Below are positions 12,405 to 16,304 of a stretch of 64,000 nucleotides of DNA, one piece after another. Each line of letters begins with the position of its first letter. Position 1 is the first letter of the stretch. Source of the DNA: Ancylothrix sp. D3o (lineage in GTDB: Bacteria; Cyanobacteriota; Cyanobacteriia; Cyanobacteriales; Oscillatoriaceae); NCBI RefSeq assembly GCF_025370775.1, contig NZ_JAMXEX010000004.1, forward strand, positions 77,441-141,440, written 5' to 3'. Below the pieces are notes generated by a model. That model had not been told where the DNA came from and did no database searches. It saw only the letters and a list, made by a program, of their open reading frames with translations. The position numbers and the translations under genes are program-made.

Positions 12405-13496
12405 ATGGCTTCTACAATTTGTGTCAATTTACCGCAAAATGCTTATGAAATCGTGATTGCATCGGGTAGCTTAGATGAACTGGGCACGCGAATGCAATCT
12501 CTTAAATGTGGCAAAAAAGTTTTACTTGTTTCCAACCCTGTTATTTTTGAACATTATGGAAATCGTGCATTAGCTTCTTTGACGGCGGCGGGGTTTGATG
12601 TCAGAAGTTGTATTTTACCGGCAGGAGAAGAATACAAAACTCCCCAAACATTGCAAACTATTTATGATGCGGCTTTAGAACACCGGCTTGAAAGATCCTC
12701 GACAATGGTAGCCCTCGGCGGCGGTGTAATTGGCGATATGACTGGGTTTGCGGCGGCGACTTGGCTACGCGGGATTGGAGTTGTACAAGTTCCGACAACT
12801 TTATTAGCAATGGTTGATGCGTCTATTGGCGGCAAAACCGGCGTCAATCATCCCAAAGGAAAAAATTTAATTGGGGCTTTTCATCAGCCTAAATTAGTAT
12901 TTATTGATTCCGAGGTTCTCAAAACTTTGCCGGTTAGAGAATTTCGGGCCGGTATGGCAGAAGTTATTAAATATGGTGTGATTTGGGATAAGCCGCTTTT
13001 TGAAGCTTTAGAAGCAAGTCCCCGTCTTGATGAAATTGATGTTATTTCTCCAGAATTAATTGAAAAAATTATCACGGCTTCTTGCCAAAGTAAGGCAGAT
13101 GTGGTAAGCAAAGATGAAAAAGAATCAGGTTTAAGAGCAATTTTAAATTACGGTCATACGATTGGTCATGCGGTGGAAAGTTTAACCGGCTACACTGTTG
13201 TGAATCATGGTGAAGCGGTGGCAATTGGCATGGTGGCGGCTGGAAATTTAGCCGTAGAATTGCAAATGTGGGATGAAGAAAGTAATAATCGGCAATTAGC
13301 TTTAATTGAAAAAGCCGGTTTGCCTAGTAAGTTACCGGGGGGTTTGAATTTAGATGAAATTGTCGATAGTTTGCAAACAGATAAAAAGGTAAAGGATGGA
13401 AAAGTCCGGTTTATTTTGCCTACTTCTATCGGTGTAGTAACGATTACTGATCAGGTGCCGGCGGAGTTGATTTTTAAGGTTTTAAAAAGTATGTAG
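12405..13496 (+). CDS. aroB: 3-dehydroquinate synthase
   Basis: This is the second step of the shikimate pathway: it converts DAHP to 3-dehydroquinate using NAD and a divalent metal. It has 363 residues, the usual length. Signature regions are the NAD-binding [19 protein letters not shown], the substrate loop [20 protein letters not shown], the metal-ligand Glu in MAEVIKYG, and the metal-binding His residues in [11 protein letters not shown] and [11 protein letters not shown]. It lies 1 kb from the DAHP synthase gene on the other strand, so two consecutive shikimate-pathway enzymes are near neighbours but not in one operon. Confidence 0.96.
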
Positions 13497-14548: not shown

Positions 14549-15406
14549 TTAAGCAACAGCTAACTGCCGGTTCATTTCCGCCACCGGCACCCGACGGCCA
14601 ACAGCAGCAGCAATGGGACGCAAACTCTCAACTAATTCGGCCATTTCTTCTAAAGAAAGCGCCTGTCTGGCATCAGAAACAGACTTTTCTGGTTCAGGGT
14701 GACACTCTACCATAATGCCATCAGCACCGGCAGCCACCGCAGCTTTTGCCAAAGCACTAACTAACTCGCGTTTACCCGCAGCATGAGAAGGATCAACAAT
14801 CACCGGCAAATGAGTAATTTGTTTAAGCGCCACCACAGCCCCTAAATCAAGTACATTTCTGGTGTAATTATCGAAACTGCGAATACCACGCTCACATAAA
14901 ATAACCTCTGAGTTGCCATGAGCAAGGATATATTCAGCAGCCATAACGAATTCTTCAATGGTTGCAGCTAAACCCCGTTTCAAAATAACCGGTTTACCGG
15001 CACTTCCCACAGCTTTAAGTAAATCGAAATTTTGCATATTGCGGCTGCCAATTTGTAGCATAGCAGCGTGTTCGACAATGCCTTCAATTTGGCCAATGCT
15101 CATTACTTCCGTGACAGTGGGGATGTTATGGTGCCGGGTAATAGTCGATAAAATATTTAACCCCGCATCTCCCATGCCTTGGAAAGCGTAAGGGGAGGTG
15201 CGGGGTTTGTAGACGCCGCCTCGCAAAACTTGTACTGATGTGTGGGCGAGGTGGTTGGCGACTTGTTCCATTTGGTGTAAGCTTTCTACGGTACAAGGGC
15301 CACCAATGATCAATAAATCCTCACCCCCAATGCTGGCAGTTTGGGAGACTTTGAGGATCGTTTGGTGTTCGGCGTGAGTTTTAGCAGCGAGTTTTGCAGT
15401 TAACAT
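14549..15406 (-). CDS. aroF: 3-deoxy-7-phosphoheptulonate (DAHP) synthase, core-only
   Basis: The enzyme condenses PEP and erythrose 4-phosphate, the entry step to Phe, Tyr and Trp. It has 285 residues from ATG 15406. The same frame is open further upstream, but that part is occupied by a terminator and leader, so a longer N-terminus is rejected. Motifs include LLIIGGPCTVES, VLRGGVYKPRTSPYAFQG, the Lys/Arg region KPVILKRG, ILCERGIRSFD, and the metal-binding DPSHAAGKR and VECHPEPE. It is the short KDO8P-synthase-like (I-beta) type. No ferredoxin-like, ACT or chorismate-mutase domain for feedback control is visible. Control appears to lie in the leader, which holds two tandem attenuator units. 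Confidence 0.95.
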   Translation of the reverse strand: MLTAKLAAKTHAEHQTILKVSQTASIGGEDLLIIGGPCTVESLHQMEQVANHLAHTSVQVLRGGVYKPRTSPYAFQGMGDAGLNILSTITRHHNIPTVTEVMSIGQIEGIVEHAAMLQIGSRNMQNFDLLKAVGSAGKPVILKRGLAATIEEFVMAAEYILAHGNSEVILCERGIRSFDNYTRNVLDLGAVVALKQITHLPVIVDPSHAAGKRELVSALAKAAVAAGADGIMVECHPEPEKSVSDARQALSLEEMAELVESLRPIAAAVGRRVPVAEMNRQLAVA

Positions 15407-15475: not shown

Positions 15476-15510
15476 AAAAAAAAACCCAGAACTTTTTACA
15501 GTTCCGGGTT
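15476..15510 (-). terminator. Attenuator terminator 2 of the aroF leader
   Basis: On the minus strand AACCCGGAACT (15510-15500) pairs with AGTTCTGGGTT (15493-15483), with one G-U pair and a 6-nt loop. It is followed by nine T (forward A-run 15476-15484). It lies 70 nt before the aroF start codon. Its 5' arm can instead pair with the upstream antiterminator arm at 15549-15538. Confidence 0.88.
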
Positions 15511-15549
15511 CAGGTGTCAAACGACATGAGGCTACCTACCCAGAACTGT
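15498..15549 (-). promoter_or_regulatory. Antiterminator 2 (mutually exclusive with terminator 2)
   Basis: The minus-strand arm ACAGTTCTGGGT (15549-15538) pairs with ACCCGGAACTGT (15509-15498): 12 bp with one U-G pair. It shares its 3' arm with the 5' arm of terminator 2, so only one hairpin can form. The upstream arm lies on the last codons and stop of leader peptide 2. A ribosome that finishes the peptide masks it and favours termination. A ribosome stalled on the aromatic codons leaves it free. Confidence 0.82.
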
Positions 15550-15598
15550 GTCTGCGCCAAAAAAAATAAAAGCTAAAAAATCGGGTTTGGGTTGTCAT
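15536..15598 (-). CDS. Leader peptide 2 of the aroF attenuator (aromatic-rich)
   Basis: A 20-codon frame runs from ATG 15598 to TAG 15538-15536 and reads MTTQTRFFSFYFFWRRHSSG. Codons 7-14 are FFSFYFFW: seven of eight are Phe, Tyr or Trp. Its ATG overlaps the TGA of a 13-codon mini-frame (15636-15595) as ATGA, which suggests translational coupling. The stop codon lies inside the antiterminator arm. This is the design of an amino-acid attenuator leader peptide. Its neighbour leader 1 has the same layout with a different sequence. Confidence 0.82.
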   Translation of the reverse strand: MTTQTRFFSFYFFWRRHSSG

Positions 15599-15636: not shown

Positions 15637-15666
15637 AAAAAAAACCGCAGCCTTTTGTCTGCGGTT
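15637..15666 (-). terminator. Attenuator terminator 1 of the aroF leader
   Basis: On the minus strand AACCGCAG (15666-15659) pairs perfectly with CTGCGGTT (15650-15643) around an 8-nt loop, followed by eight T (forward A-run 15637-15644). Its 5' arm overlaps the 3' arm of antiterminator 1. Confidence 0.88.
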
Positions 15667-15711
15667 CACTTGGGTTTCCAGCACCATTGAAGGTGTCACG
15701 CCAAGTGAACC
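15663..15711 (-). promoter_or_regulatory. Antiterminator 1 (mutually exclusive with terminator 1)
   Basis: The minus-strand arm GGTTCACTTGG (15711-15701) pairs perfectly with CCAAGTGAACC (15673-15663), 11 bp. The last four bases of the second arm are also the first bases of terminator 1. The first arm covers codons 15-19 of leader peptide 1, just before its TGA, so completion of the peptide masks it. Confidence 0.84.
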
Positions 15712-15755
15712 TGCGTAAACCACCAAAAATAAAATGAATAAGTGCTGTTGGACAT
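15696..15755 (-). CDS. Leader peptide 1 of the aroF attenuator (aromatic-rich)
   Basis: A 19-codon frame runs from ATG 15755 to TGA 15698-15696 and reads MSNSTYSFYFWWFTQVHLA. Codons 6-13 are YSFYFWWF: seven of eight are aromatic, including two adjacent Trp codons. It begins about 32 nt after the predicted transcription start. No strong ribosome-binding site is seen, which is common in cyanobacteria. Its end overlaps the antiterminator arm. Scarcity of charged Tyr-, Phe- or Trp-tRNA should stall the ribosome before that arm and allow readthrough into the second unit. Confidence 0.82.
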   Translation of the reverse strand: MSNSTYSFYFWWFTQVHLA

Positions 15756-15793
15756 TTGCGGTTTTTTTGTTTTTTAAATCCTTTATCTCTTCG

Positions 15794-15822
15794 ACCCTAG
15801 CATAAGGTTTTCGGGGTGTCAA
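15794..15822 (-). promoter_or_regulatory. Sigma-70 promoter for the aroF leader
   Basis: On the minus strand a perfect -35 TTGACA (15822-15817) is followed by a 17-bp spacer and the -10 TAGGGT (15799-15794). The -10 is preceded by TGC, so it is of the extended (TGn) type. The predicted start is near 15787. The -35 box overlaps the last bases of the upstream thioesterase gene, whose stop codon is at 15819. Confidence 0.7.
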
Positions 15823-16304
15823 GGGGTGGGGAAATTTGTTGATTTTGGGGGGAGCGAGTGAGCCAATTCTTCTAAAAGATTGGGTTCTGGGGTGGTTTGT
15901 TGCAATTGATCAAATAAGTCTATTAAGGGATTAGGGATGGGTTTGGGGCGCATGGTTTTGAGGTCTACCCATACCCATAAAGCCTCGGCAGTAACTAAGA
16001 GTTGTTCTTCGTTTTGTTTGCGAATTTCATAGCGGCGAATTGCTCGCGGGCCGCGCATTTTTTCGAGCCAAGTAGTTATTAAAAGCGTGTCGCTGGCGCC
16101 GGCGGGACGTAGATAATCGATTTCAATGCGCCGCATGACAAAGACTCCGCCCATTTGCTGGTAGCGCTCTAGGGTGAAACCGAGGTGTTCTAAATGTTCG
16201 ATGGCGGCGTGTTCTAAGTAATGTTGATAAATGGCATTATTAACATGGCCGAGGGTGTCCATTTCGTAGTGACGAACTCGGATTTGGGTAGTGAATTTTT
16301 GCAT
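15819..16304 (-). CDS. Acyl-CoA thioesterase (hotdog fold, 4HBT type)
   Basis: The protein has 161 residues. It begins FTTQIRVRHYEMDTLGHVNN, with the family motif in which the Asp acts in thioester hydrolysis, and continues LEHAAIEHLEHLG and VMRRIEIDYLRPAG. This is the YbgC/FadM-like class. In cyanobacteria related enzymes include 1,4-dihydroxy-2-naphthoyl-CoA thioesterase for phylloquinone, which is one possibility here, but the sequence alone does not decide. It ends at the promoter of the aroF leader. Confidence 0.85.
   Translation of the reverse strand: MQKFTTQIRVRHYEMDTLGHVNNAIYQHYLEHAAIEHLEHLGFTLERYQQMGGVFVMRRIEIDYLRPAGASDTLLITTWLEKMRGPRAIRRYEIRKQNEEQLLVTAEALWVWVDLKTMRPKPIPNPLIDLFDQLQQTTPEPNLLEELAHSLPPKSTNFPTP

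Follow-up and report, generated by a model that had tools for sequence, protein, structure and literature searches.

An accessory DAHP synthase gene of cyanobacteria is preceded by two putative leader-peptide attenuators in series

The window analysed in this study, a stretch of 64,000 nucleotides from Ancylothrix sp. D3o (contig NZ_JAMXEX010000004.1, positions 77,441 to 141,440), carries on its minus strand an accessory gene for DAHP synthase, the first enzyme of aromatic amino acid synthesis. Between a single promoter and the gene, which starts at 15406, lie two units in series, unit 1 at 15755-15637 and unit 2 at 15598-15476, each consisting of a short leader ORF rich in aromatic codons and two competing RNA helices (Table 1). 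This anatomy is shown by the data below, while the reading of both units as leader-peptide attenuators is inferred. The promoter boxes are separated by a spacer of 17 bases, and in 40 of 45 representative loci the 110 bases before leader 1 contain the pattern TTGACn-N16-18-TAnnnT, compared with 0.9% in shuffled sequences. Only 38 bases separate the first T-run from leader 2 in the window. Across the loci studied, the distance from T-run 1 to start codon 2 is at most 80 bases in 79 of 84 cases (median 30.5, range 18-120), so that in most loci there is little room for another promoter and leader. Upstream, the end of an ORF for a YbgC/FadM-type thioesterase (15819-16304) falls within the -35 box of the leader promoter, at 15819. 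On the other side, aroB (3-dehydroquinate synthase, 12405-13496) points towards the DAHP synthase gene, with about 1 kb and one ORF between its end and the 3' end of that gene.

Leader 1 runs from an ATG at 15755 to a TGA ending at 15696, and seven of its codons 6-13 are aromatic. Its last codons form the 5' strand of an 11-bp antiterminator, in which GGTTCACTTGG (15711-15701) pairs with CCAAGTGAACC (15673-15663); the competing terminator pairs AACCGCAG (15666-15659) with CTGCGGTT (15650-15643). The terminator of unit 2 joins 15508-15500 to 15493-15485 and is followed by nine T down to 15476. A first-pass annotation, made from sequence alone, had described the promoter, the 19-codon leader, the 11-bp antiterminator, the 8-bp terminator and the eight T of unit 1, all of which are confirmed as described. 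Beyond what it described lie the tandem unit 2 and its start-codon helix, so that the element is half of a larger structure. A Shine-Dalgarno-like GGAG, GAGG, AGGA or AGGT is found at the last two codons and the stop of leader 1 in 23 of 45 representatives; such bases might slow the ribosome on arm 1, or they may be a mere consequence of the pairing.

Table 1. Coordinates of the promoter, the two leader units and the DAHP synthase gene in the window
Feature	Position	Strand	Basis
Promoter -35, TTGACA	15817..15822	-	Read directly in the sequence
Promoter -10, TAGGGT, with TGC just before it	15794..15799	-	Read directly in the sequence
Leader peptide 1 ORF, MSNSTYSFYFWWFTQVHLA, stop TGA	15696..15755	-	Direct reading; like peptides in relatives
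Unit 1 arm 1, antiterminator 5' strand, GGTTCACTTGG, last codons of leader 1	15701..15711	-	Covariation; scan z -9.9
Unit 1 arm 2, common to antiterminator and terminator	15659..15673	-	Covariation of both helices
Unit 1 arm 3, terminator 3' strand, CTGCGGTT	15643..15650	-	99.2% of 360 cells paired
Unit 1 terminator T-run, 8 T, first two able to pair	15637..15644	-	Direct reading
Unit 2 helix A 5' strand, CAGATGACA, contains start codon	15593..15601	-	Duplex with 15518-15526
Leader peptide 2 ORF, MTTQTRFFSFYFFWRRHSSG, stop TAG	15536..15598	-	Direct reading; unit 2 model matches 93/96 loci
Unit 2 arm 1, ACAGTTCTGGG, last codons of leader 2	15539..15549	-	Pairs with 15498-15508; covariation
Unit 2 helix A 3' strand, TGTCGTTTG, after stop codon	15518..15526	-	Unbiased scan and permutation test
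Unit 2 arm 2, CCCGGAACTGT, common to both helices	15498..15508	-	Covariation of both helices
Unit 2 arm 3, terminator 3' strand, AGTTCTGGG	15485..15493	-	94.5% of 563 cells paired
Unit 2 terminator T-run, 9 T	15476..15484	-	Direct reading
Controlled gene, DAHP synthase, 285 aa	14549..15406	-	NF006421 and TIGR01361, both over their cut-offs

Leaders 1 and 2, the second starting 157 bases downstream of the first, are the only short ORFs (8-40 codons) on either strand of the window that contain at least seven aromatic residues within nine codons. Four more short ORFs reach six in nine, and the mean number at six or more was 2.28 in 25 windows simulated with a Markov model. One rival explanation, chance resemblance in T-rich intergenic DNA, has in its favour that Phe is often encoded by T-rich DNA. 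However, ORFs with at least seven aromatics numbered only 0.08 per simulated window on average, against the two observed, and together with conservation and linkage to the gene this all but excludes it.

Conservation was examined in two samples. The first, 40 genomes comprising the source genome and its relatives, gave 16 loci of the DAHP synthase orthologue, and a script found both leaders in 14 of them; the second consisted of 80 named loci, the best 80 of 555 matches, bringing the total to 96. Carriers with names include Nostoc, Calothrix, Tolypothrix, Scytonema, Westiellopsis and Microcoleus, as well as Microseira, Laspinema, Hydrococcus, Phormidesmis, Leptolyngbya and Symploca. Nostoc punctiforme NIES-2108 and Westiellopsis prolifica are two of the strains and species concerned. 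The covariance models R1 (unit 1) and R2 (unit 2) match 92 and 93 of the 96 loci, respectively, many of these loci being part of the models themselves. R1 fails at L018, L032, L048 and L049, and R2 at L017, L048 and L049. Loci L048 and L049 are cut by contig ends, and in L018 and L032 unit 1 is truly absent from the available sequence. L032 retains unit 2 from the aromatic run on; its leader 2 is without a usual start codon, and other sequence containing no unit 1 lies upstream. That sequence upstream of unit 2 (L032, 1-260) is a replacement, and the joined sequence may resemble a transposon end. Wherever the script finds both units, unit 1 comes first (84/84 loci). The gene with both units (72% identity) is also present at L063, in a record titled Candidatus Obscuribacter MAG; this could be a cyanobacterial contig that was binned wrongly.

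Linkage was also tested, with less circularity, in 339 genomes sampled from the phylum Cyanobacteriota. By protein search, 33 of them contain the DAHP synthase orthologue at E 1e-88 or better (weakest 1.6e-119). At E 0.01, R1 was found in 33 genomes and R2 in 65, of which 32 had matches at E 2.8e-8 or better and 33 had weak matches only. The 33 genomes with the orthologue contain R1 in 32 cases, a strong R2 in 32 and both in 31, whereas the 306 genomes without it contain R1 once and a strong R2 never. The single exception, G065 (L122, 1000-1650), is a relic in which leader 1 and arms 1 and 2 are followed by a deletion and then by a decayed piece of DAHP synthase. Both units are therefore linked to their downstream gene, which makes the very amino acids that would be sensed. 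Some circularity remains in this test, as genomes used in training the models are among the 33 (e.g., G000, G008, G011, G021, G034 and G039) and others may be of the same species as the named loci; the searches also used stricter filters, with loss of weak matches. The weak R2 matches (E 4.8e-5 to 0.01, in the 33 further genomes plus one in the source genome) were counted as chance. Six of them were examined (L191-L195 and L199; the others were not opened) and none has a seven-aromatic leader, while the three that were aligned (L192, L193 and L194) lack both arms. Two orthologue matches, L274 (G076) and L282 (G155), have 1 TGA and 2 TAG in frame, which may reflect decay, assembly error or something else.

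A second rival explanation holds that only one unit regulates, the other being either a duplicate in decay or a simple terminator that shields the gene from the thioesterase gene upstream. It is supported by the existence of loci with unit 1 alone (L017, in genome G034) or unit 2 alone (L018 and genome G168), and by weak matches of the unit 2 model to unit 1 in five loci, as expected of a duplication. Against it, both units covary and keep their aromatic runs across the sampled loci, and all but two of the 33 orthologue genomes have both, which makes this explanation unlikely. The two single-unit genomes and the losses in L032 do indicate that two units are not indispensable.

The leader ORFs look coding. 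All 84 row-gaps within the leader 1 columns of the alignment are of 3 or 6 bases, and 105 of the 108 within the leader 2 columns are multiples of three, although these counts refer to rows rather than independent events. The aromatic class is maintained even where the residue changes: among representatives, the 225 cells in the aromatic columns of unit 1 comprise 179 with the commonest residue, 40 with another aromatic and 6 with a non-aromatic residue, and the corresponding 399 cells of unit 2 comprise 302, 74 and 23. Of the cells that depart from the commonest residue, 40 of 46 in unit 1 and 74 of 97 in unit 2 hence still hold an aromatic; according to the codon table, one random nonsynonymous base change in such a codon yields an aromatic residue at most about once in six. 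Phe, Tyr and Trp all occur within the last 19 residues in 85 of 87 leaders 1 and in all 90 leaders 2, and most leaders have 5-10 aromatic codons, leader 1 of L045, L074 and L097 having only 4. The position of the run is also constrained: 77 of 87 leaders 1 have their last aromatic 7-8 codons ahead of the stop, and 75 of 90 leaders 2 have it 7 codons ahead. If the ribosome is assumed to reach 12 bases, counted from the first A-site base, a stall within the run would leave arm 1 largely uncovered. Three leaders end ahead of arm 1, namely leader 1 of L013 and the second leaders of L009 and L088. One criterion for an attenuator of this kind, a cluster of end-product codons in a short leader ORF, is met for both units, translation itself not being shown.

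These observations bear on a third rival, in which a bound metabolite or protein (a riboswitch or an antiterminator protein) controls the two terminators and the short ORFs are incidental. Conserved competing helices are typical of riboswitches too. However, gaps in threes and a conserved aromatic class are not what incidental ORFs would give, and length and sequence vary outside the arms and the ORF. Furthermore, no family of Rfam release 15 reached its gathering score when the window was searched, and the six weak matches had E values of 0.099 at best. No amino acid leader family is among these six sub-gathering matches, and the T-box riboswitch is absent from the matches of the window, weak ones included. 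We consider this explanation very unlikely.

The competing helices were examined for covariation, the mutually exclusive helices being counted as named structures, in 45 unit 1 representatives (of 87 rows, from the 96 loci) and 57 unit 2 representatives (of 58, from 90 rows; L044 was omitted because its T-run was wrongly cut). Unit 2 of L022 was dropped for want of a TTTT, and L009 was not classed owing to its early stop. The script selected unit 1 rows by a TGA stop and a V-H or V-R ending (L013 and L041 end otherwise), so the constancy of the end of leader 1 is partly due to selection. The antiterminator of unit 1 is paired in 84.7% of 672 cells, with both sides changed in 49 cells, and its terminator in 99.2% of 360 cells, with 9 such cells. 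For unit 2, the figures are 87.5% of 614 cells with 31 for the antiterminator, and 94.5% of 563 cells with 35 for the terminator. For none of the four helices does any of 500 shuffles match the observed pairing percentage, count of double-changed cells or covariation score, and versions of the helices slid out of register pair in at most 61% of cells. Two other measures are weaker. In the order unit 1 antiterminator, unit 1 terminator, unit 2 antiterminator and unit 2 terminator, the observed number of pairs with both sides changed was reached by 21, 1, 57 and 11 of the 500 shuffles, and that of further pair types by 4, 500, 69 and 0. Two slid versions of the unit 2 antiterminator have 6 both-side-changed pairs versus 5 in the true register.

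An unbiased scan compared the duplex energy of 140 pairs of 16-base segments per unit with that of permuted partners; the top-ranking pair in each unit was that of arms 1 and 2 (z -9.9 for unit 1 and -7.4 for unit 2). The remainder of the scan is quiet, with a median z of -0.45 in unit 1 and -0.02 in unit 2; weaker, unexplained signals (z -3.6 to -4.1) link the arm 2 region of unit 1 with bases -60 to -37. Shuffles and permutations ignore the relatedness of the loci, an objection that the slid controls and the quiet remainder of the scan answer in part. On the evidence of covariation, both units meet the criterion of an exclusive antiterminator and intrinsic terminator with a common strand.

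Covariation and the residue exchanges also speak against an arrest-peptide sensor, the fourth rival, in which the nascent peptide and a free aromatic amino acid or other ligand in the exit tunnel would stall the ribosome and act through the same hairpins. TnaC, which stalls the ribosome with Trp, is a known example of such a peptide. In favour of this explanation, residue order is rather constant in the main clade (YFYFWF in one leader and WFYGFYFWPR in the other). However, the aromatic columns mostly exchange one aromatic for another, which fits a sensor of the charging of three tRNAs and fits a fixed arrest peptide less. The residues after the run follow the RNA arm: at codon -3 of leader 1, a change of CAC to CGC (His to Arg) is accompanied by a change of the partner base in arm 2 in 6 of 45 representatives, with no broken pair. 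Moreover, the TnaC logic raises expression in the presence of the free amino acid, which is the wrong sign for a biosynthetic gene. This possibility, too, is very unlikely.

The only further strong signal in the scan of unit 2 (z -7.0 and neighbours) corresponds to a helix, here called helix A, that joins the region of the start codon to sequence after the stop codon. In the window it is a duplex of 9 pairs (15601-15593 with 15526-15518) with an energy of -10.8 kcal/mol. Anchored at the start codon in the 57 representatives, helix A has a mean energy of -12.0 kcal/mol versus -8.9 kcal/mol with permuted partners, a value matched by none of 5000 permutations. Its median length is 13 pairs, and two or three bases of the start codon are paired in 48 of 57 representatives. 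Helix A is compatible with the terminator of unit 2 but crosses its antiterminator. A plain MAFFT alignment of the start region, from which 12 of 57 rows were omitted by eye, was kept out of the counts because peptide length shifts the start codon. A corresponding start-codon to post-stop helix in unit 1 is unsupported in the representatives, as 592 of 5000 permutations reach the observed value.

The consequences of ribosome position were modelled by folding the RNA with the ribosome-covered bases masked. With a ribosome at the stop, complete unit 1 forms the terminator in 44 of 45 representatives. A stall at codon -9 gives the antiterminator in 41 of 45, and 32 of 45 form it when no ribosome is present. 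Complete unit 2 favours the terminator in every state, forming it in 56 of 57 representatives when a ribosome occupies the stop, in 50 with a stall and in 54 without a ribosome, so its regulation must depend on co-transcriptional order, queued ribosomes or a pseudoknot. When the RNA is folded as a nascent chain, with arm 2 just emerged, unit 1 forms the antiterminator in 44 of 45 representatives without a ribosome and in 45 of 45 with a stall. Nascent unit 2 forms it in 31 of 57 without a ribosome, helix A forming instead in 22, in 46 of 57 with a stall, and in 55 with a stall plus a second ribosome at the start codon. That no antiterminator forms with a ribosome at the stop (0 in the nascent foldings of both units) follows by construction of the mask. 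The criterion that a ribosome at the stop covers arm 1 and a stalled one frees it is met, in unit 2 on nascent RNA only; the exceptions to coverage are the early stops of L009, L013 and L088. In the absence of translation, the model predicts that unit 1 alone would read through, and unit 2 should lean more to termination because helix A crosses its antiterminator. This asymmetry is only a prediction, as the foldings exclude pseudoknots and kinetics.

Taken together, the two units are very likely (probability about 0.87) serial ribosome-mediated transcription attenuators that sense the charging of aromatic tRNAs, a judgment that rests on comparative evidence alone, without expression data. Anatomy, conservation, helix covariation, coding character and gene linkage are shown, whereas termination, stalling on uncharged tRNA, multiplication of the effects of two units and the role of helix A are inferred, there being no transcript, ribosome or growth data. 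In each unit, the leading ribosome would translate a short peptide rich in Phe, Tyr and Trp. When the aromatic tRNAs are charged, it would reach the stop and cover arm 1, arms 2 and 3 would pair, and RNA polymerase would terminate. At low charging, the ribosome would stall in the aromatic run, 7-14 codons before the stop, leaving arm 1 free to pair with arm 2, and transcription would continue. Full-length mRNA would require readthrough at both units, which should reduce leak and steepen the response to the total aromatic supply.

The first-pass annotation had proposed such attenuation for unit 1, with expression switched on when charged Phe-, Tyr- or Trp-tRNA is scarce. Comparison supports this reading, the response of expression itself remaining inferred. 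The conservation check it suggested has now been run and passed, the unit 1 model matching 92 of 96 loci and both unit 1 hairpins showing compensatory changes in the representatives. The refuting case, hairpins conserved without the aromatic run, does not occur among the 92 loci, although three of their leaders have only 4 aromatics. Its masking logic, in which completion of the peptide leads to termination and a stall to the antiterminator, is upheld for unit 1 by the masked foldings. The caveat that the last aromatic codon lies near the arm is fair, yet the spacing is conserved.

A bolder reading, for which we judge the odds to be slightly unfavourable, is that of a two-stage AND gate with built-in asymmetry. 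Untranslated, unit 1 would read through by default and unit 2 would terminate by default, with helix A locking the start codon of unit 2 once the ribosome has missed its chance. Passage would then occur only if the leaders are actively translated and the ribosomes stalled on aromatic codons in both units. If true, the gate would tell amino acid shortage from general translation failure and sharpen the response to the summed charging of three tRNAs.

Whether or not the gate is real, serial attenuation of the kind preferred here belongs to a known class of switch, represented by trpL, pheL and AroR; its tandem form and its phylum are absent from the literature searched. A 2016 study stated that there were no reliable data on attenuation in cyanobacteria (PMC4833913). 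In the open-access literature that we searched, by titles and the starts of abstracts and with most subscription papers outside the scope, no cyanobacterial leader-peptide attenuator is described. This agrees with the initial remark in the first-pass annotation that none was known for a cyanobacterial DAHP synthase. Nor are two like amino acid attenuators in series described in the same open-access titles and abstract starts. Attenuators of DAHP synthase genes have nonetheless been described in Corynebacterium and proposed in Acholeplasma. In Corynebacterium glutamicum, the AroR leader before the aroF (DAHP synthase) operon is a ribosome-mediated attenuator with Phe-Tyr-Phe codons (PMC11802643, PMC4046766; Neshat et al. 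2014). AroR, which belongs to another phylum, is a single leader with a Phe-Tyr-Phe motif and answers to Phe and not to Tyr. The cyanobacterial form, in contrast, has two serial leaders, the second with a start-codon helix, and most leaders contain all of Phe, Tyr and Trp. The uORFC-13-1 motif of Acholeplasma aroF is likewise a predicted leader ORF with Phe codons and a terminator before a DAHP synthase gene, but it is single, is represented by 24 sequences with at least one Phe codon, and has no stated relation to cyanobacteria (PMC8632094).

The trpL and pheL leaders of Escherichia coli share with the present units a run of end-product codons and an exclusive antiterminator and terminator (PMC11802643). 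In those leaders, too, the first arm is covered by a ribosome at the stop codon. They differ in sensing one amino acid with one unit each and in controlling other genes; for their 1:2 pause hairpin, which gives termination without translation, no counterpart is supported at the start codon of unit 1, and unit 2 has a helix that buries the start codon, whose role is inferred. The tandem attenuators of Salmonella mgtCBR also comprise two short ORFs in one leader that are expected to affect stem-loops and transcription (PMC3641672), but they precede another gene. The two mgtCBR leader ORFs respond to different signals, whereas both cyanobacterial leaders are built for the same amino acid class.

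The cyanobacterial system provides a case with covariation, carried by dozens of named strains and by 33 of the 339 phylum genomes. If the interpretation is correct, transcription and translation in these cells must be coupled so tightly that a ribosome can steer RNA polymerase. With its possible fail-safe helix, the serial arrangement would constitute a natural experiment on why cells use two like attenuators, and the leader would be an engineering target for aromatic overproduction in cyanobacteria.

This mode of control may be peculiar to the accessory DAHP synthase gene. The ubiquitous DAHP synthase paralogue (48-53% identity) has no like leader within 900 bases before the matched part at 32 of 33 loci (L001, L019-L021 and L162-L190; L181 was skipped as too short, and L183 was shortened, its coordinates being uncertain); weak short ORFs scoring 5 occur at L001, L169, L177 and L188. 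In 14 relatives, no leader with a terminator was found before pheA (13 of 14 matches scanned), trpE and its relatives (23 scanned of 24 sampled, 43 matches) or leuA and its relatives (23 scanned of 24 sampled, 37 matches), so attenuation of this mode is not general at these genes. L216 of the trpE set and L251 of the leuA set were not scanned for lack of a usable frame. The scan would miss a Trp leader with only two Trp codons, and his, ilv and thr were outside its scope. Two weak ORFs without a terminator were seen in it, at L203 and L258. Besides TrpE, a second TrpE-like protein that falls below the family cut-off is encoded at G000:C1:592669-593958 and at similar loci of relatives.
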